Source: Candidatus Cloacimonadota bacterium
GTDB taxonomy: Bacteria; Cloacimonadota; Cloacimonadia; Cloacimonadales; TCS61
Direction: 5' to 3'
Assembly: GCA_021736135.1 (NCBI GenBank)
Contig: JAIPGO010000028.1
Span: 1-39,331, forward strand
Length of the DNA: 39,331 nucleotides
The notes beneath the pieces are model-generated. The model made no database searches and had not been told where the DNA came from. It worked only from the letters and a program-made list of their open reading frames with translations. The position numbers were made by a program, and so were the translations under genes. Positions within the stretch are counted from its first letter, which is position 1; every line of letters begins with the position of its first letter. Shown here piece after piece: positions 3,898 to 13,625 of the stretch.

Positions 3898-5853
3898 ATG
3901 ATCCAGAAAGCATACTGCACAAACCTGACAATTCCCAATTCTCTGGAATTTCTCCCCTTGTGTGCTGCTTTCATTGAGCATAATTCTCAGTTGATCGGGT
4001 TTGATCCTGATGAAGTTCAGGCAATTTCGCTGGCTGTAGAAGAAACTCTCTCTAATCTGATCTTATATGCTTACACTCCGGGTATGATAGACACTATCGA
4101 TATTACCTGCTGGCAGACTCCCCTCGGAATTGAGATTATCATAAAAGATAAGGGTATGCCCTTCGATTATAATGAAGAAGAAGACTATGATCCTGAACAA
4201 CCTGAACTTGATAATACACGCGGTCTGGGGATGTTTCTTATCAAAAAGACAGTAGACGAGGTGATCTTTACAAACTGTGGAAGTGAAGGTAAGGAAACAC
4301 ACTTGGTCAAATATATCACCAAATGCCCCCTTAGCGATCTGATGCAGAAACCTGACCAGCATTTTAAACAGGAACCTCTCCGGCGTAAAAATGTTAATTT
4401 TCTGATCAGAAGACTCGCTGATAACGAAGCTTTTGAAATTTCCCGAGCCGTTTATCGCGTATATGGCTATAATTACTTCAATGAACATGCTTATTTTCCT
4501 GACCGTATTGAAAAACTGAATAAAAATGGTAATCTTGATACGCTGGCCGCTGTTACGGAAGACAACATCTTTGCCGGTACTTGTGCCGTCTACCGTGAAA
4601 GTCTGGAAGGTAAACTCGGTGAACTGCAGCAGGCGGTAGTTCTCGATGAATTTCGAGGTAACCATTGTATGGAGCAATTGCTGAATTCATTGCTGGCTAT
4701 CGCGCAGGATAAAAATATGCTGGGTGTTTTTGCCAGATCGGAAACCAGTGAGATCTTTGCCCAGCGCGCCCTCCATCGTCTGGAAACACGAGACTGTGCT
4801 CTTCTACTCGGTTTCACATCCCGACTCGTCTGGGATAAGGGTAATAAAGCACAGCAGCGGGAAAGTATGGTTCTTTCTTACCTGCCCCTGGGGAAAGACC
4901 TTCCCAAAAAGATCTATGTGCCGGAACATCATCAGAATATTGTAAGCCAGATATATGAAAATATTGGCTATCAAAGGGAGTTTAATCCAACTCCTTATGG
5001 CAAGAAACCCTGGCACGAGGAAGCTGAACTCGAGATCAAGTATTTTTACAATACATCTGCTGCCGAAATTAAGGTTGCTCTTCCTGGTAAAGATATTATC
5101 ACTAAACTGAAAACTGCCAAGAAAGAAGTGAAACTTAAAAAGTTCGCCGTAATCTATCTTTATCTCAGTCTCGAAAACCCGTTTACTCCCCTTTACTTCG
5201 AACAGATCGAAAATCTCGATTTCTTTTTTGCCGGTATCATTCCCCATGAGAAATTCGGTGATTCCATAATTCTGCAGTACATGAATAATATCGATATTGA
5301 TATTGAAAACCTCGTGTTATATTCCGACTTTTCCCGGCAACTGGCGGCTTATGTAAGTCAGTGTCGTTCCCGGCATCCTTTGCGTCTTCTGATCGATGCC
5401 GGAGAAAGTGAGAAACTGGAATTCAAATCCACGATGCGTCTGAACCTGAAGGATAATCAAAAGGACAGCCGCATAGGTTTTGCCATCCTGAAAAGCATTT
5501 CAGCCTTTCTGAATACCGATGGCGGTACTCTGCTCGTGGGTGTGGAAGATAACGGTAATATTCTGGGTTCCGAAATTGAGGACTTTGCCAGTGATGATAA
5601 ATATCTGCTTCATTTCTCTCAGCTGCTGCAGCATAATATCGGCCTTGATAATTCCCGTTTTGTTCATTATAAACTGGTGGATATCGATAACAAAAAAATT
5701 CTCAAAGTAGATTGCGAAGCTTCGCCCAAACCCATTTTCCTTATAAAAGACAGTGTGGAAGATTTCTATATCCGCAGTGGTCCCGCCAGTAAAAAGCTTT
5801 CTATCTCAACTGCCATCACTTATATTAGTGAGCACTTCCCAAAACATGATTAG
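3898..5853 (+). CDS. RsbW-like ATPase / GNAT-like / AlbA_2 fusion protein
   Basis: Three units are visible in 651 aa. Residues 1-140 form a HATPase_c_2 (RsbW/SpoIIAB anti-sigma kinase) domain with an N-box (AVEETLSN, 46-53), a G1 box (DKG, 84-86) and a G2 box (TRGLGMFLI, 107-115). Residues about 165-315 resemble a GNAT acetyltransferase fold, with a degenerate acetyl-CoA loop at FRGNHCMEQLL. From about 502 comes an AlbA_2 (Schlafen-type divergent) domain, with GESEKLEFKS and the diagnostic AFLNTDGGTLLVGVEDNG. Family knowledge gives anti-sigma or partner-switch kinases for the first unit and nucleic-acid-linked regulators for the last. The combined function is unknown. It starts nine bases after pepD without a clear Shine-Dalgarno, implying translational coupling, and ends seven bases from a convergent gene. 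Confidence 0.85.
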   Translation: MIQKAYCTNLTIPNSLEFLPLCAAFIEHNSQLIGFDPDEVQAISLAVEETLSNLILYAYTPGMIDTIDITCWQTPLGIEIIIKDKGMPFDYNEEEDYDPEQPELDNTRGLGMFLIKKTVDEVIFTNCGSEGKETHLVKYITKCPLSDLMQKPDQHFKQEPLRRKNVNFLIRRLADNEAFEISRAVYRVYGYNYFNEHAYFPDRIEKLNKNGNLDTLAAVTEDNIFAGTCAVYRESLEGKLGELQQAVVLDEFRGNHCMEQLLNSLLAIAQDKNMLGVFARSETSEIFAQRALHRLETRDCALLLGFTSRLVWDKGNKAQQRESMVLSYLPLGKDLPKKIYVPEHHQNIVSQIYENIGYQREFNPTPYGKKPWHEEAELEIKYFYNTSAAEIKVALPGKDIITKLKTAKKEVKLKKFAVIYLYLSLENPFTPLYFEQIENLDFFFAGIIPHEKFGDSIILQYMNNIDIDIENLVLYSDFSRQLAAYVSQCRSRHPLRLLIDAGESEKLEFKSTMRLNLKDNQKDSRIGFAILKSISAFLNTDGGTLLVGVEDNGNILGSEIEDFASDDKYLLHFSQLLQHNIGLDNSRFVHYKLVDIDNKKILKVDCEASPKPIFLIKDSVEDFYIRSGPASKKLSISTAITYISEHFPKHD

Positions 5854-5860
5854 CGGTAAA

Positions 5861-6256
5861 TCATAAAGCTTCATATAAGTTATCCAGTACGATCCGCTGT
5901 TCCTGGTTTTCATTTTTATAATTCTTATCAGTAAAAATCACGCAGTGATCACTATTATGTTCAATATAAAGCGTATGCGGATTATTTAGATAATTGATCA
6001 ATTCCGGGTATAGTTGCAGATATGTTTTCTGGAGAGATTGTGGACGCTGGGGATAGTTCAATTCTTCTGCTAAAACGAAATCCAGCTTTTTCTTTTCCCA
6101 GATACTTACCGGTACGATCAGGCATTTTTTGTCAGCATCAGCCAGGATCACTACTCTTTGATAGCGCGCCTTTAAAAGTTCAGTCTTGATCTTGTTTGGC
6201 AATCGAAATCTTCCATTTTTATATAACTTACAGGAAGGATACAATAGCATGTCCAT
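5861..6256 (-). CDS. MraZ-like / AbrB-fold DNA-binding protein
   Basis: This 131-aa protein opens with NGRFRLPNKIKTELL followed by VVILADADKKCLIVPVSIW. That matches the 'kGRl-iPkk-re-L...D--cL-lyp---W' pattern of MraZ (SpoVT/AbrB-like fold). A full MraZ has two such repeats of about 70 aa; only the first is clear here, the second half being divergent (HNSDHCVIFTDKNYK). MraZ normally heads the division and cell-wall cluster, but no mraW/ftsL neighbour is present, so this is probably a diverged paralogue acting as a transcription factor. CGGAGA lies just before the ATG at 6256, which is preferred over the ATG two codons later. It sits 14 bases after the GH57 gene and is probably co-transcribed with it. 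Confidence 0.6.
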   Translation of the reverse strand: MDMLLYPSCKLYKNGRFRLPNKIKTELLKARYQRVVILADADKKCLIVPVSIWEKKKLDFVLAEELNYPQRPQSLQKTYLQLYPELINYLNNPHTLYIEHNSDHCVIFTDKNYKNENQEQRIVLDNLYEAL

Positions 6257-6270
6257 ACATTCTCCGTTCT

Positions 6271-9183
6271 CTATTCTTCCACGGGAAAGTGCTCAATCAT
6301 CCCTATCACGAAACGCATGATCAAAGATGCATCATAGGCTTCTGCCAGCCCGTTGCCATCAACGTCTGCCGCTGTTATCTGCCATTCCTGCCAGTCTGTT
6401 ATAATACCCACAAAATACTGCAGAACCAGCGCTGCATCATAACTTTCCACCAGCCCGTTACCGTCCACATCTCCATAAATAAAACCACCGGAAAATTCAT
6501 ATAACAGGTATTCAGTCGCCTCAATAATTGTGTTACCATTTCCCGCCGGGGCCTGCTGCTGCAGAGAACCACCATCCGTTGTCTGGTAAGTTGCCAGGCA
6601 GATATATAACTGTTCGGGTGAGTTCCACTGTGCCAAATTTATCACTCCTTCCAGCACGGCTCCCTGGTCTGCCTGAGCAGAAGCGCTCTGGTCAAACCAG
6701 CCGCACCAGCCATTGGTACTTTCATTTGCCAGAAATACGTCCCACTCTGCTACAGTGCCGGCTTTTGCCCAGGGGGCATTGACCATAGTGACCGGATTTT
6801 CCGAGATAAAAATGAAAACATCTTCCCCGAGTGATACTGCAGAACTGCCAGCCACGTAGAGTTCTGTTGCCGATAATCCCGCATATAAGGTCAGTTCACC
6901 GCTGCCGGCAATTAACTCGGCTGCGTCATCCAGATTACCGTCTATTACAAAGGTATCTCCACTGCCGCCTGATAGATCTATCAAGTAATCCATGCCGTTA
7001 TTATTATCCCAACTGCCATCATAATAATGTATTACGAAATTTACTGAGTTTACCTGCTGCTCCTCCGCATTGAAGGGTCCCAGCTCCAGATGCAGATTGC
7101 CTTCGGCATCTGGTCCCAGCATTGGTGTTTCCACAGCTGGTCCAATATTATTAAATAACTGCGTACCTTCCACCCAGTAAACCTGAGCAGGCTGAGTAAA
7201 ATTATTTACTCCCCAGTGCAGATTTGCCCCAATGCTGGTGTCAGTAACTATTATGGAAATCATATCGTCGTTTGTCGGTTCTGCAGGTTCCCAGCTTACT
7301 TCTCCGTAACCTCCGGTTCCCCCGCCACTGCCATCACCAATATATGCATGCTGAATATCTGATTTTTGAATATTACCTGCTTCGTCTGCTGCTTCCACAT
7401 AATAATCAATAAGTTCGTTACTCAATCCCGTAATTGCCACGCTGTAGTGCCAGGCTTTGTAAAGAGGCTGAGGATTAGTCTGAGATATTTCGTTAGTTCC
7501 AGTCATAGGCAGAGAAATCCAGTCACTTACGTCTCCACCTCCGGCATAAAGCTCATTATCACTGGAAAAGGTGGAATTTATTCCGTCATTGTCCAGCCGG
7601 TATTTCAGTTCCACTCCTGCCAGTCCGCTGTAGTCATAAACGTAAGTCCAGATCTCCACATCTCCCGGCATGGCAATTGTCCACTCCGTGCTGCCGGGAT
7701 TATAAGGTTCACGCTGCGGCAGGTATATTGTCGGTGGCGTCAGGTCTGTATAGCCGTTCACGAAAGGTAGGGCATCAGTCACTGCCATGTTGGCCGCCCG
7801 AGCCGGATGACTGTCCCATATCCCGTTCTGTGATCCATCCCAATACCAGTAGCAGCTTGTTTCACCCGTCAATAGCATGCGGTAGGCGTCCTGCACCTGT
7901 TGTGAAGCCGGACTATTATCCAGTGCCGTAAATACGATATTTTTAGCGGCTGTCATTATACCCCAGCTATTACGGTCTGGACTGTAACCGTTATAGGGGT
8001 CTCCATTCCATTTCTTAAATTCGGGATCTCCATTATCAGCCCCACTCCAGCTTCCGGGTTCCACGTGTACCACGTCACCTGCTGCCGGGGGGAACATATC
8101 CAGATAATCCTGGATAGTCGTGCACACGAAGCGGTCGGAATTTGCTCCCAGCCACTGCACAAAAGCGGCAAAATTATTAGTATAATAGGAGCTGGCACCA
8201 CCCCCGTAATTATCTCCGTCATGATGTAATACGACCAGCACCGGATGGTCATCATCAGTATTAAAGGATTCAAACTGGCTCATTACCAGGTCATACTGCA
8301 AAGCGCCAAAGCCGCCCCTGCCATCCTCATTACCCAGATACCTGCTTGCCGGTACTCCTATTATCTGGCTTTCTTCTCCTGTTTCGGGATCAATATATTT
8401 TACCCAGTGCGGCTGATGTGCCCATTGCGCGGAAACATCCGAGCCTGCCCACAGTCCGTTCAATTGCAGCCAGTCACCCGGATCATTTTCCACCACATCT
8501 GCTTCATTCATCTCATAAAGGTTACTGCTGGTCGTGAAGGGATAGCCCTCCGTTACTCTTTCAAAATGGATATTATCTATTAAGACCCATTCAATGTTTT
8601 CGTCTGCCAGCGCCGGGATCATCGCTTCCGAAAAAGCACATTCCGGTGGAAACATCCCTCGTGAATAGGCTGTCACATTGAAAGTGCTCTCCACGGCATT
8701 CCTGTGCAAGGCTATCTGGCTGCGTATGTCACGGTAATCTATTAAACCCAGCAGAGGATGAAAATATCCGATTGATACCATATCCAGCCGTGGATTTCCC
8801 AGGTTTGTCGTCTGTGAGGACATATTTGTCCAGGATGACTGCCAGTTGGAAAAATTCCAGTTGCCGTTTGCCTGTAGCGTGTTCAGATTCTCTATTAGCG
8901 AACCACTAAAACTTACCTGGGAACCGAAATGCCCGAATCCAGCATTTATCCCCATCTGAACGGCATCTGAGGGCCAGCTGGTATAAGGTCCCCAGCGCTG
9001 ATTGTGGATGTCTTCTATGGAATAACTGTAATGCCCGGCATTATCCGTCTCAATAACATTCTCACCCGGATAATATATTGGCTGGTGCATATGCCAGAGA
9101 AATGCGATATATATCTTAGGCACCGCTAAACAATTCACTGCCAGTAAAAGACTAAATACTAATAATACTGTTTTCCTTATCAT
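6271..9183 (-). CDS. Secreted GH57 glycoside hydrolase with dockerin-like tail
   Basis: The 970-aa protein begins with a signal peptide (cleavage likely near residue 20). A GH57 catalytic barrel follows, as in alpha-amylase, amylopullulanase and branching enzymes. It has the family HMHQP motif (31-35), a probable nucleophile in MFPPECAF (Glu181) and an acidic motif LHHDGDN (Asp322/Asp324 region). The middle holds beta-sandwich-like modules (about 500-630 and 640-740) linked by a Gly-rich spacer, then a further sandwich near 745-890. The C-terminus carries two EF-hand-like dockerin repeats starting with DVDGNG at 905 and 940. The likely role is extracellular alpha-glucan breakdown, though the substrate cannot be read from sequence. 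GGAGAG precedes the ATG. It lies between the GPP34 gene and the MraZ-like gene on the same strand. Confidence 0.88.
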   Translation of the reverse strand: MIRKTVLLVFSLLLAVNCLAVPKIYIAFLWHMHQPIYYPGENVIETDNAGHYSYSIEDIHNQRWGPYTSWPSDAVQMGINAGFGHFGSQVSFSGSLIENLNTLQANGNWNFSNWQSSWTNMSSQTTNLGNPRLDMVSIGYFHPLLGLIDYRDIRSQIALHRNAVESTFNVTAYSRGMFPPECAFSEAMIPALADENIEWVLIDNIHFERVTEGYPFTTSSNLYEMNEADVVENDPGDWLQLNGLWAGSDVSAQWAHQPHWVKYIDPETGEESQIIGVPASRYLGNEDGRGGFGALQYDLVMSQFESFNTDDDHPVLVVLHHDGDNYGGGASSYYTNNFAAFVQWLGANSDRFVCTTIQDYLDMFPPAAGDVVHVEPGSWSGADNGDPEFKKWNGDPYNGYSPDRNSWGIMTAAKNIVFTALDNSPASQQVQDAYRMLLTGETSCYWYWDGSQNGIWDSHPARAANMAVTDALPFVNGYTDLTPPTIYLPQREPYNPGSTEWTIAMPGDVEIWTYVYDYSGLAGVELKYRLDNDGINSTFSSDNELYAGGGDVSDWISLPMTGTNEISQTNPQPLYKAWHYSVAITGLSNELIDYYVEAADEAGNIQKSDIQHAYIGDGSGGGTGGYGEVSWEPAEPTNDDMISIIVTDTSIGANLHWGVNNFTQPAQVYWVEGTQLFNNIGPAVETPMLGPDAEGNLHLELGPFNAEEQQVNSVNFVIHYYDGSWDNNNGMDYLIDLSGGSGDTFVIDGNLDDAAELIAGSGELTLYAGLSATELYVAGSSAVSLGEDVFIFISENPVTMVNAPWAKAGTVAEWDVFLANESTNGWCGWFDQSASAQADQGAVLEGVINLAQWNSPEQLYICLATYQTTDGGSLQQQAPAGNGNTIIEATEYLLYEFSGGFIYGDVDGNGLVESYDAALVLQYFVGIITDWQEWQITAADVDGNGLAEAYDASLIMRFVIGMIEHFPVEE

Positions 9184-9267
9184 CTAAATACTCTCCATTT
9201 TGATAACTTCGTCCACTGTGTCCGCTTTGTCCATAACAATTTTCGGCATTTCAGCCGTTCAGTTCCT

Positions 9268-9927
9268 TTAATAATACAACTGCTGCATACTCAGTTTCTG
9301 CAGTATTTCATAGATTGCCTGATATACCGCCTGTCCGATCACGTCCATTGCCGTAATACTGTCAATCCGTTCCTGATAGTTCTTCTGCTCGGAATTACCA
9401 AATACCAGTTCGGTCAGGTTACAGGATTTTATGAGGCTGATGAGCACAACGTCTCTTTCGGAAGGCGCTTCTCTGCTGAATACTGCTGCCCGGATGCGCT
9501 CTTTTACGTCGTCCTCAACTTGCTCATTCACCAGCGGATAGCATTTCCGGTGTAATATCCAGAGTATATTCTTCTCCTTTTTTTCCAGGATACCTTTTTC
9601 CACCAGGCGCTTTAAAAAGTAATCTTTGATCTCCTGGATATGGATGCCCAGTTTCCAGACCCAGTAACGGGCAGATTCCGCTTCCCGCTGCTCCTTTATC
9701 ATAGCCAGGGCATCATCAAATATTTCATCAGCGCAGGGATTCTCGTCGATCATTTCCACCATCTCCGGTGTCGCTTTAATTTTCCCCATTAGCGAGAGCT
9801 CCATTAATACTGCCCCCGCCAGGCCAAATTCTAATCCCATAAAGGGCTGGTTACACACTACCCCCTTTTCATCATCAAGGGCTAACAGGAGAAATTCTTC
9901 TGCTAAAGTCAATCTGGCATCATTCAC
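9268..9927 (-). CDS. GPP34 / GOLPH3-like protein
   Basis: This protein of about 219 aa matches the GPP34 family (bacterial relatives of Golgi phosphoprotein 3). The N-terminal hallmark is RLTLAEEFLLLALDDEKG, followed by the alpha-helical run GLAGAVLMELSLMGKI and, in the middle, LVEKGILEKKEK. Eukaryotic GOLPH3 binds phosphatidylinositol-4-phosphate at membranes; bacterial members are mostly uncharacterised, so a membrane-surface adaptor role is only inference. An in-frame ATG at 9939 exists, but the only good Shine-Dalgarno (GGAGG) lies inside its codons 2-3, placed correctly for the GTG at 9927, so that start is preferred. The REC-kinase gene ends about 10-20 bases upstream and the GH57 gene follows after 84 bases, suggesting one operon. 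Confidence 0.8.
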   Translation of the reverse strand: MNDARLTLAEEFLLLALDDEKGVVCNQPFMGLEFGLAGAVLMELSLMGKIKATPEMVEMIDENPCADEIFDDALAMIKEQREAESARYWVWKLGIHIQEIKDYFLKRLVEKGILEKKEKNILWILHRKCYPLVNEQVEDDVKERIRAAVFSREAPSERDVVLISLIKSCNLTELVFGNSEQKNYQERIDSITAMDVIGQAVYQAIYEILQKLSMQQLYY

Positions 9928-9948
9928 TTTTTCCTCCATTTTTGGATT

Positions 9949-11223
9949 TCAGGTAATGATCTTAAAAACCGCACCCTCGCCTTCATTCGCAGCGAGCAGT
10001 TTCCCCTTCATATTTTTCTCGATCACCATCTGGCACATATAAAGGCTTAGTCCTTTTCCGGCACTCTTGAATTTCGAAGTTACATAAGGCTCAAAAATAT
10101 GGTCATAAATTTCGGGGCTTATTCCCCCGCCATTATCGCTTATGGTCACCAGTGATCTGCCATCCTGGCTGCTGAGTTCTATCCGTATCTCTTTTCCGCC
10201 GTCACGGCTGTTTACGGCATCTCGCGCGTTATTCAATATCTGCAATATCACCTGGGCATAATCATTTTTATAGCCCAAGATCTGCATTTCCTGCTTTACA
10301 GTGTTTTTTAAATTGATATTGTCACTTTCCAGAGTTGGCTGCAGAAGTTTCAGACATTTATCCAGAACTTCTCCCACAGAAAATTCCTGCCGCTCTTCCA
10401 CAGGCTCAAAGAAATAACGCAGATCATCAATGGTTTCGGACATCTCCTGAATAATGATCATAGCTTTCACAGTCTGGTTTTGTACGTATTCCAGGCTGAT
10501 GTCCTCAGCAAATTCCAGGTCCTGGATCAACGCCATCACAGTATTCAAGGGCTGCCGCCACTGGTGTGAGATATTGGAAATAAGTTCGCTGATCGCCGTC
10601 TGGCGTGACTGCTTGATAATAATATGATCCTTTTCACGTATCTCTTCAACAGCGCTTTCCACTTTCTGCTGCAGATCCTGTCGGTATTCTTCCAGTGTCA
10701 CTAAGGAATTATAAGCTCTCAAACCCGACATTACAAGCGTAAATATCTTATCTGCCGTCAATTCCGTCTTGGATTTATAATCATTAATATCGTAATTCAA
10801 CACAACTTTGCGTTCCGGTGCATGCCCCGGTTGTCCGGTGCGCAGGATTATCCGTACAAAACCGTTGTGTAGTTCTTCCCGGATACGCTTCACCAGATCA
10901 AGTCCTGCCGTGGTTGTTTCCATCACCACATCCAGCAGCAGGATGGCAATATCTGCCTGTTCGCTCAGCAAATCATAAGCTTCTGCTGCCGAATAGGCAT
11001 CCAGTATCTTCACCGCCATACCCTCAAACTCAAAGTCATCCAGCGTTAGATGCGTCACCGTGTGCACGTCCTCTTCATCATCCACTACCAGGATTTTCCA
11101 GAATTCACCTCTGGCAGCAGTGCCAACCTGCAACTGTATTTTAGTGTCTTGTTTGTTTTCGCTTTCTTTCGCTTCTTCTTGAAAAAAGACCAGATCGTCC
11201 TGATTCTCTTCATTATAGTTCAC
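9949..11223 (-). CDS. Receiver-histidine kinase hybrid (REC first)
   Basis: The 424-aa protein has no membrane segment. A receiver domain (about 42-170) holds the acidic pair VVDDEED, phosphoacceptor Asp98 in LLLDVVME and Lys150/152 in DYKSKTEL. A coiled-coil linker (175-205) leads to a HisKA-type H-box, SNISHQWRQPLN, with His220. The HATPase domain shows an N-box (QILNNARDAV), G1 (DNGGGI) and KGLSLYMCQ. A receiver placed before the kinase suggests that an upstream kinase controls this one. The start is GTG: GGAGGAGG lies just upstream and itself encodes Gly-Gly-Gly near the end of the TPR kinase. The two genes overlap by 11 bases, so translational coupling is expected. Confidence 0.92.
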   Translation of the reverse strand: MNYNEENQDDLVFFQEEAKESENKQDTKIQLQVGTAARGEFWKILVVDDEEDVHTVTHLTLDDFEFEGMAVKILDAYSAAEAYDLLSEQADIAILLLDVVMETTTAGLDLVKRIREELHNGFVRIILRTGQPGHAPERKVVLNYDINDYKSKTELTADKIFTLVMSGLRAYNSLVTLEEYRQDLQQKVESAVEEIREKDHIIIKQSRQTAISELISNISHQWRQPLNTVMALIQDLEFAEDISLEYVQNQTVKAMIIIQEMSETIDDLRYFFEPVEERQEFSVGEVLDKCLKLLQPTLESDNINLKNTVKQEMQILGYKNDYAQVILQILNNARDAVNSRDGGKEIRIELSSQDGRSLVTISDNGGGISPEIYDHIFEPYVTSKFKSAGKGLSLYMCQMVIEKNMKGKLLAANEGEGAVFKIIT

Positions 11224-13474
11224 TTAATCCTCCTCCTGCGTAAGGAAAATCCATTTTAAAGCGTGCTCCTTTTCCCGGCTCGCTTTCCACGATAATATTG
11301 CCATTCAGCTTCTGTGTTACAAGGTTATAGATTATATGCATTCCCAGTCCCGTTCCCGTTTGTTTATTTGTAGTAAAGAAAGGATCGAATATCTTTTTCA
11401 AAACTTCCCCCGCCATACCTTTACCATCGTCATAATATTCAATATACAGTCTTTTATCGCTCTGAACCACATTAAAGGCGATCTCTCCCTCGTCAGTTTC
11501 TCCAAAGGCGTGTACCAGTGAATTGAGCACCAGGTTCGTGATGATCTGGGCAAATATTCCCGGATAAGAATTCCACACCAGAAACTCATCACAGTTGATC
11601 TTCACTTCCACTTTTCTGCCTTTGAATTTCGGCTCCAGGCTGGTGAGAACATCCCGGATGTAATTCCGGATCTTAAACTGCCGCTGGGCTTCTGTGCTCT
11701 GATCAACGCTTACCTGTTTAAAACTTTTCACCAGCTCTCCTGTGCGCTGCGAATTGCTCAAGATCAGGTTACCTGCTTTTTCTATATAACCCAGAAATGT
11801 ATCCAGGTCGCTCTTTTTCATCTGATTGTTCTGATATTTCTCCATCAGCGTCTTCTGCCGGTCACAGAGATTCGATGCTGCCGTGATGATAATGCCTACC
11901 GGCGTATTGATCTCATGTGCCACTCCCGTTACCAGACTGCCCAGAGATGCCATTTTCTCTGATTCCACCAGTTTTTTCTGCGTTTTCCGTAATTCCCCCA
12001 GTGTCTCACTTAATTCCTCTTTCTGCCGGGTGATAAGTGTATTCTTTGCTGCCAGGATTTCCGCTGATTTCTTCTTGCTACGGTAACGCCTGTAAACAAA
12101 GGCCACCAGCAGCAGAACGGCAAATGCCAGCGCAATCATGTAATTACGCTGCATTTCCTTGCGCGTTATCTCCAATTCTTTGATCTCATTATCTTTGCGC
12201 AGTAGTACGTTTTCCCGCTCTTTGCGCTCCGTATTATACTTGGTCTGCATCTCTGCTATCTGCTCAGCTGTGGTTGAAGCAAAAATGCTGTCCCGCAGAT
12301 TGGATTCCTTCTCCTTATACTGCAATGCCAGTTCCGCATCTCCCTTTGCCCGGTATAGTTCACTCAGGGAAGCATTGATCTCTGCCTTCAATTCCTGCGA
12401 TTTGAATTCCTCAGCATAAGCCAGCGCCTGCTTGATAGCTGTTTCCGCCTTAGTAAAGTCTCCCATCTCCAGATAGATCATGCCCATGTTATTAGTGAGA
12501 TATGCCTGGTACATTCCAACACCCTGTGCTTTAAATATTTCCAGGGTCTGCTGGTAATATTCCAGGGTCTTTTGATAATCCTTCTGATAATAATATAAAT
12601 TACCTATATTTCCCAGTACGGAAGCTATTCCCAGGTCGTCATCGAGACTGCGGTATTCTTCCAGCGATTTTTCATAATATTCCAAAGCTCTGGTATAGTC
12701 TTCCATTTCGGCATAGAGAGTTCCCATATTTCCATATACAACGGCAACTTCCTTCCGGTTATTCATCTCCTGGTGCACTTGCAGCGCCTGCCGGTAATAT
12801 TCCAGAGAAAGGGCAGGATTCATTAACGACTGATATACTCTCCCGATATATCCTTTTAAGGTCGCTTCCAGTGCCGGCTCCTTTATCTTTTCCGCTTCTT
12901 GCATGGCTTTCAGAAAACTGGCAAGTGCTTCCTCAAAACGTCCCCGCTCCAGATCTATCGTTCCCCGGTTTCTGTAACATCTTGCCAGTTCTTCTATTAC
13001 TTCCGGGGTCATTTCCAGCGATTTGTAAATTGCTTCCGATTCTTTCAATTTATCAATAGCCTTGTCTGCCCAGCCTAACTTGTTATATGCCAGGGCAATG
13101 TTGGCATTGATCATTCCCAGGTTCAATTGCTCGCTTTCGGCATCTACCAGCTTCAGTGCCTTTTCAAAACAATCTATTGCCTGCCAGTAATCTCCTTGCG
13201 TCAGTTGGATTCTCCCTGCTATGGTCAAAGCCTTGCTTTCTCCCTGCGTATACCGGGTTTCCCGCGAAAGCTTTAATGCCAGACTATCCGCTTCCCAGCT
13301 CGCAGTAATGTCATCTGTCAGCAGCAGCTTAGAAAGCTCCAACAGCAGATCCACTTTCTCTCTGCCCATGGCTTTCATTATCCGGCGCTCCAGCTCCAGG
13401 CGATTACCCTCGCCCCAGAGTGCGCTTATCAGCAGCAATATAATAATTATTATCAGTTTTTTTCCAGTTTTCAT
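11213..13474 (-). CDS. TPR-containing membrane sensor histidine kinase
   Basis: The 753-aa protein starts with a hydrophobic signal or anchor (residues 6-20). About eight tetratricopeptide repeats follow between roughly 60 and 400, with typical ALEYYEKSLE and NIGNLYYYQKDY blocks. A coiled segment leads to one transmembrane helix near 445-461 and then a cytoplasmic coiled coil. The H-box VTGVAHEINTPVGI has His520. The HATPase domain has IITNLVLNSLVHAF (N-box), DDGKGM (G1), DPFFTT (F) and GTGLGMHI (G2). The TPR part is therefore predicted to be periplasmic and to sense a protein or envelope signal. This architecture is frequent in Bacteroidetes and relatives. It is the first gene of the minus-strand run and overlaps the REC-kinase, its probable partner. 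Only a weak GGTAAG precedes the ATG. Confidence 0.92.
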   Translation of the reverse strand: MKTGKKLIIIIILLLISALWGEGNRLELERRIMKAMGREKVDLLLELSKLLLTDDITASWEADSLALKLSRETRYTQGESKALTIAGRIQLTQGDYWQAIDCFEKALKLVDAESEQLNLGMINANIALAYNKLGWADKAIDKLKESEAIYKSLEMTPEVIEELARCYRNRGTIDLERGRFEEALASFLKAMQEAEKIKEPALEATLKGYIGRVYQSLMNPALSLEYYRQALQVHQEMNNRKEVAVVYGNMGTLYAEMEDYTRALEYYEKSLEEYRSLDDDLGIASVLGNIGNLYYYQKDYQKTLEYYQQTLEIFKAQGVGMYQAYLTNNMGMIYLEMGDFTKAETAIKQALAYAEEFKSQELKAEINASLSELYRAKGDAELALQYKEKESNLRDSIFASTTAEQIAEMQTKYNTERKERENVLLRKDNEIKELEITRKEMQRNYMIALAFAVLLLVAFVYRRYRSKKKSAEILAAKNTLITRQKEELSETLGELRKTQKKLVESEKMASLGSLVTGVAHEINTPVGIIITAASNLCDRQKTLMEKYQNNQMKKSDLDTFLGYIEKAGNLILSNSQRTGELVKSFKQVSVDQSTEAQRQFKIRNYIRDVLTSLEPKFKGRKVEVKINCDEFLVWNSYPGIFAQIITNLVLNSLVHAFGETDEGEIAFNVVQSDKRLYIEYYDDGKGMAGEVLKKIFDPFFTTNKQTGTGLGMHIIYNLVTQKLNGNIIVESEPGKGARFKMDFPYAGGGLSEL

Positions 13475-13594: not shown

Positions 13595-13625
13595 TCCCTC
13601 CTTAGCGGAGGGATTGATTTTTTTA
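13595..13625 (+). terminator. Terminator-like hairpin in the arcC leader
   Basis: TCCCTCC (13595-13601) pairs perfectly with GGAGGGA (13607-13613) around a TTAGC loop. TTGATTTTTTT follows. It lies only 20 bases before the arcC ribosome binding site and after the candidate promoter, so it could act as an attenuator or as a 5' stabilising hairpin. It could also be part of a dispersed repeat unrelated to arcC. Confidence 0.5.

Follow-up and report, generated by a model that had tools for sequence, protein, structure and literature searches.

A GOLPH3-like gene in a conserved two-kinase gene triplet of Cloacimonadota, and the recurrent linkage of its relatives to bacterial STAS genes

Homologues of the eukaryotic trafficking adaptor GOLPH3 occur widely in bacteria and have hardly been studied. 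The one experimental paper on such a protein that we found concerns the Streptomyces genes SCO4439-SCO4440, and the available text of that paper describes GOLPH3-like proteins as previously undescribed in prokaryotes (PMC12402492). In a literature search with incomplete coverage of subscription papers and preprints, no paper was found on a link between proteins of the GOLPH3 family (GPP34) and STAS proteins, or between GOLPH3 and anti-sigma factors, and a review of STAS proteins does not mention GOLPH (PMC8256260). Here we consider a stretch of 39,331 nucleotides (hereafter the window) from Candidatus Cloacimonadota bacterium (GenBank assembly GCA_021736135.1, contig JAIPGO010000028.1, positions 1 to 39,331 of the forward strand; host genome size 4.14 Mb), in which a GPP34 gene lies on the minus strand directly behind the genes for two histidine kinases. 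We report that these three genes are the actual unit at this locus, and that in several bacterial phyla GPP34 genes are linked to STAS genes far above chance. The wider association is the stronger of the two results and the finding worth pursuing.

The three genes encode, in order, a sensor histidine kinase with TPRs (the TPR kinase), a histidine kinase preceded by a receiver domain (the receiver-kinase) and the GPP34 protein. An earlier interpretation made from the letters of the window (the sequence-only reading) had tied GPP34 to such a two-kinase, receiver-bearing module and had proposed looking for GPP34 beside receiver-kinases in other genomes. The neighbourhood recurs in all three comparison genomes of the sister genus Candidatus Stygibacter (G087, G088 and G089), with gene order, strand and tight spacing kept, which upholds the tie across the sister genus and refutes an absence of recurrence. 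In the window the two kinase genes overlap by 11 bases and a gap of 9 bases precedes GPP34; in Stygibacter the overlap is 14 bases and the gap 12. Full-length orthologues of the receiver-kinase (64-68% identity) were found only in the three Stygibacter genomes, each with GPP34 adjacent, and orthologues of the TPR kinase at L048, L052 and L057 score 990-1064 bits. Upstream of the triplet lies a carbamate kinase gene in the window and in G089, and other genes in G088. Within these two genera the link between the putative relay and GPP34 is real.

By inspection, both kinases retain their His, N, G1 and G2 motifs. Pfam finds TPRs, a weak HisKA and HATPase_c in the TPR kinase; its N-terminus bears a signal-like hydrophobic stretch, and a transmembrane segment predicted at about residues 445-461 lies C-terminal to the TPRs, an arrangement that would make the TPRs periplasmic. 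Its HisKA motif reads AHEINTP, with H520 as the phosphoacceptor. In the receiver-kinase, Pfam finds Response_reg, HATPase_c and a weak HisKA; the receiver occupies residues 44-154 and is followed by a HisKA of the HQWRQPLN type and HATPase_c. The motifs of the receiver seem intact on inspection, its acidic residues, the Asp of LLLD, the Thr and the Lys all being present. The Asp of the receiver is D98 and the His of the kinase behind it H220. This receiver is most closely related to the receivers of REC-HD-GYP proteins, whose genes adjoin REC-SpoIIE and STAS genes and lie directly downstream of them in G000, G088 and G089 (and in G087, as judged by coordinates only). This kinship suggests either that a phosphodonor is shared or that the receiver has a common origin with a partner-switch module. 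The REC-SpoIIE, STAS and REC-HD-GYP genes form a conserved module of their own in the window genome and Stygibacter (L254:527-3646, L255:3590-6732 and L256:2900-6110).

The GPP34 gene is the sole copy found in the host genome, and its product matches PF05719 over the full domain (residues 12-211; 162 bits against a cut-off of 29.1, E 2e-47) and GOLPH3 itself in phmmer (E 4e-12). A predicted model of the protein, with a predicted local distance difference test score (pLDDT) of 82.7 and a predicted template modelling score (pTM) of 0.83, had significant Foldseek matches to GOLPH3 and Vps74 only (9qpq, 3kn1 and 2zih; template modelling scores of 0.58-0.68, normalised by query length), and on the strength of this model the protein has the GOLPH3/Vps74 fold. 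Model confidence is low around residues 129-141, where the beta-hairpin that serves GOLPH3 in oligomerisation would be sought. Four residues, W81, R90, R171 and R174, we take to be those of the phosphatidylinositol 4-phosphate (PI4P) pocket of GOLPH3; in the alignment of bacterial GPP34 proteins the first three are not conserved and the fourth is mostly K or R. Lipid sensing of the GOLPH3 type is not supported for the window protein because three of the four are absent.

GPP34 was present in 30 of the 125 Cloacimonadota genomes examined, and some of these lineages link it to signalling modules of another make-up, with SpoIIE, RsbW and STAS genes. Pfam gives the order solute-binding protein, SpoIIE, RsbW, STAS, GPP34 at L042, and our own profiles give the same order from SpoIIE onwards at L049; at L053 GPP34 adjoins an RsbW-like protein with SpoIIE further along, and at L037 SpoIIE lies near GPP34. 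L032, taken with L258, holds a pair of GPP34 genes together with genes for a PDC protein, for solute-binding proteins, for SpoIIE proteins with receivers and for kinases, one of them a TPR-kinase; in this TPR-kinase (L032:10588-12702) an apparent Ala (GHILAQWQQPL) stands where the phosphoacceptor His would be expected. Six of the 30 genomes have SpoIIE no more than 10 kb from GPP34, against 0.68 expected; four of the six belong to one family, so that these are not six independent events. STAS genes near GPP34 number 4 against 0.12 expected. Kinase-profile matches beside GPP34 in L035, L046, L050 and L055 proved Hsp90-like by homology to Pfam-checked members and were not counted. At L040:2828-5188, divergent from a pair of solute-binding protein and GPP34 genes, is encoded a 786-aa protein with an N-terminal STAS and a C-terminal phosphotransferase-like stretch. 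One genome, G071 (L065), carries the public label Armatimonadetes, as against its grouping in the family of the window genome.

The same association extends beyond the phylum. Outside Cloacimonadota, a STAS gene lies within 1 kb at 14 of 64 GPP34 loci, and 16 STAS genes were counted near GPP34 against 0.43 expected, with 2 in the remaining 801 kb, by a profile trained iteratively on the tested pool from Cloacimonadota seeds, so that distant STAS types far from GPP34 may be missed. Pfam, as an independent check, finds STAS more often than any other family in the gene preceding GPP34 (7/58), and in 2/56 genes following. In Verrucomicrobiota, a phylum assignment that rests on a Kiritimatiellaeota centre genome, at least 11 STAS genes lie near GPP34 where Pfam STAS counts per genome give 0.27 expected; the order is STAS, GPP34, RsbW at L183, L199 and L201 and GPP34, STAS, STAS, RsbW at L203 and L204. 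STAS and RsbW also flank GPP34 at L130. In at least four genomes the two are fused as STAS-GPP34 proteins (L132:3636-4649, from Victivallales; and, from the Verrucomicrobiota set, L206:1063-2139, L211:1111-2142 and L215:1060-2109), and the separate STAS and GPP34 proteins of L130 are 56% and 66% identical, respectively, to the halves of the L132 fusion. Contig 119 of G358 indicates that this genome apparently holds two such fusions. The STAS proteins beside GPP34 bear SSAGL, the motif in which RsbV-type proteins are phosphorylated on serine. A quick tree of 148 GPP34 sequences requires the linkage label to change 14 times; the linkage has therefore been gained or lost repeatedly. The significance of the enrichment is overstated, because related sequences are not independent.

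This recurrence bears on a less likely alternative, in which GPP34 is an envelope-maintenance protein co-expressed with sensors, the target of the kinases lies elsewhere and a promoter is merely shared. Most GPP34 genes do adjoin unrelated metabolic genes, such as PGM/PMM with PTS EIIA, ribonucleotide reductase, HemD, MatE or DHFR, whereas the repeated adjacency of STAS and the four STAS-GPP34 fusions point to direct functional coupling in many lineages. The direction of that coupling, output or input, is not given by gene linkage alone. GPP34 could act upstream, as a sensor scaffold that informs the kinases or the STAS protein about the state of the membrane, and a STAS at the N-terminus of a GPP34 fusion would fit a stressosome-like sensor equally well. 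We consider this decidedly improbable: the modules at L042, L049 and L032 already own solute-binding, dCache or PDC sensors, and the residues of a PI4P-type pocket are mostly missing.

The explanation that we favour, with a probability of roughly 0.42, is that a signalling module governs GPP34, which acts as an effector at the membrane surface. GPP34 is the likeliest effector of the relay because the triplet is tight, the kinase and receiver motifs are intact and the placement of GPP34 at signalling modules is recurrent; that it is regulated at all we infer from linkage. The genes from 13474 to 9268 would form a single signalling operon, in which the TPR kinase would sense a periplasmic condition, autophosphorylate and hand its phosphate on to the receiver that precedes the second kinase, and phosphorylation of the receiver would alter the activity of that kinase. 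The last gene would supply the effector, GPP34, as a cytosolic adaptor of GOLPH3 fold that sits against the inner face of the membrane, and the module would switch its binding to one or more client proteins. Where GPP34 has a recognisable signalling neighbour, the switch in most lineages would be a STAS protein open to phosphorylation, in many cases accompanied by an RsbW-type kinase and in some by a SpoIIE-type phosphatase, and so may amount to a partner switch that lacks an evident sigma factor; in the window genus and Stygibacter a histidine-kinase relay would stand in its place. More broadly, and with more doubt, we suggest that bacterial GOLPH3-like proteins may be general non-sigma outputs of signalling switches, with STAS partner switches in many phyla and a histidine-kinase relay in a Cloacimonadota lineage controlling a GOLPH3-folded adaptor of membrane or envelope proteins.

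Several observations weigh against control of GPP34 by such modules. Pfam finds neither STAS, RsbW nor SpoIIE in the window operon, the presence of an RsbW-like gene nearby (3898-5853) looks coincidental, and Pfam identifies no output response regulator among the five window genes. Only two genera are known to have the triplet, and 108 of the 148 GPP34 rows have no such signalling neighbour, many of them having been viewed with 1.5-kb flanks only. The predicted model of a STAS-GPP34 fusion (pTM 0.62) has a loose linker and no firm interface. Finally, with three of the four PI4P-pocket residues lost, binding of GPP34 to the membrane is proposed on the basis of its predicted fold.

All five minus-strand open reading frames (ORFs) described by the sequence-only reading are present according to ORF calls and Pfam (Table 1), and the domain readings of the first four agree with Pfam. 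That reading had the five genes following closely, which holds for the first three and again for the last two, separated by 14 bp, and breaks down between GPP34 and the GH57-dockerin gene. A single five-gene operon coupling the relay, GPP34 and GH57 secretion is a very improbable alternative. G087 and G089 preserve the order, and the GPP34-GH57 gap yielded no predicted terminator in a scan whose terminator-like matches in the region are fewer than the shuffled expectation (3 against 6; promoter-like sites 20 against 15 by chance), which makes it uninformative. The gap itself measures 84, 167 and 234 bases in the window, G087 and G089, the latter two containing repeat-like DNA (L048, L052), whereas in G088 a transposase-like gene (L057:52-630) comes next after GPP34 and the start of the GH57 gene lies on a different contig, close to its end. 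Relatives of the GH57 enzyme also occur in G091, G092, G112, G115 and G118, genomes without a receiver-kinase orthologue, and dockerins of its type are common in the host genome. Because of this variable, repeat- or transposase-bearing gap and of the GH57 relatives found without the receiver-kinase, we treat GH57 and the 131-aa gene as a second unit, probably transcribed separately; the placement of the exported enzyme in one unit with the kinases and GPP34 is not supported, and any secretion link of the relay and GPP34 is weak.

Table 1. Features of the window considered in the text.
Feature	Coordinates	Strand	Basis
TPR sensor histidine kinase, 753 aa	11213..13474	-	ORF call, Pfam, motif positions
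Receiver-histidine kinase, 424 aa, GTG start	9949..11223	-	ORF call, Pfam, motif positions
Receiver domain of the receiver-kinase	10762..11094	-	Pfam, comparison of relatives
GPP34 / GOLPH3-like protein, 223 aa	9268..9939	-	Pfam, model, Foldseek, phmmer
GPP34-GH57 gap, 84 bp	9184..9267	-	Coordinates
Exported GH57 glycosidase with C-terminal dockerin, 970 aa	6271..9183	-	Pfam GH57 and Dockerin_1
Orphan 131-aa ORF	5861..6256	-	ORF call; family search in relatives
Terminator-like stem-loop between divergent TPR-kinase and carbamate kinase genes	13595..13613	+	Terminator scan
Predicted transmembrane segment YMIALAFAVLLLVAFVY of the TPR kinase	12092..12142	-	Sequence inspection, inferred

The last gene had been called MraZ-like, an identity that we rejected: neither Pfam nor NCBIfam gives a match for the 131-aa protein, and a three-sequence profile of it and two relatives returned no MraZ from the PDB, in a search by profile with no fold comparison made. 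Its family, confidently found only in the window genome and Stygibacter and always behind GH57, shares the motif NGRFRLPNK. The plus-strand gene at 3898-5853 encodes an N-terminal RsbW-like HATPase_c_2 and a C-terminal AlbA_2 domain; it was set aside as a part of the system, being on the convergent strand and having its likely G089 counterpart on another contig. A relative of its product, with no Pfam AlbA match, abuts GPP34 in L053.

The tie to STAS partner switches, natural fusions included, offers a concrete and cheap hypothesis for the binding partners and the control of GPP34, and bears on the origin of a eukaryotic trafficking adaptor. If GPP34 is indeed a general switch output, regulated GOLPH3-type adaptors would exist in bacteria independently of the Golgi or PI4P.

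Several described systems resemble the locus in part. The Streptomyces pair SCO4439-SCO4440 likewise places a bacterial GPP34 in a conserved gene pair and has an envelope phenotype, but its partner is a carboxypeptidase, and the available text describes no kinase or STAS link (PMC12402492). TPR-containing and relay histidine kinases of the FimS type are alike in their periplasmic TPRs, transmembrane segment and HisKA-HATPase_c, and in a second kinase with an N-terminal receiver, whereas the window operon, without a DNA-binding response regulator, ends in GPP34. The Rsb/Spo partner switches (RsbU/SpoIIE, RsbW and RsbV, and the non-sigma BtrUVW and SypE/SypA) are matched at the loci of GPP34 relatives, which encode a SpoIIE-type phosphatase, a HATPase_c_2 kinase and a STAS protein with SSAGL, but the window operon has none of the three. 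With GOLPH3 and Vps74 (PF05719), finally, the window protein shares its sequence family and, by prediction, its fold, whereas it is bacterial, about 22% identical, devoid of three of the four PI4P-contacting residues and encoded among bacterial signalling neighbours.

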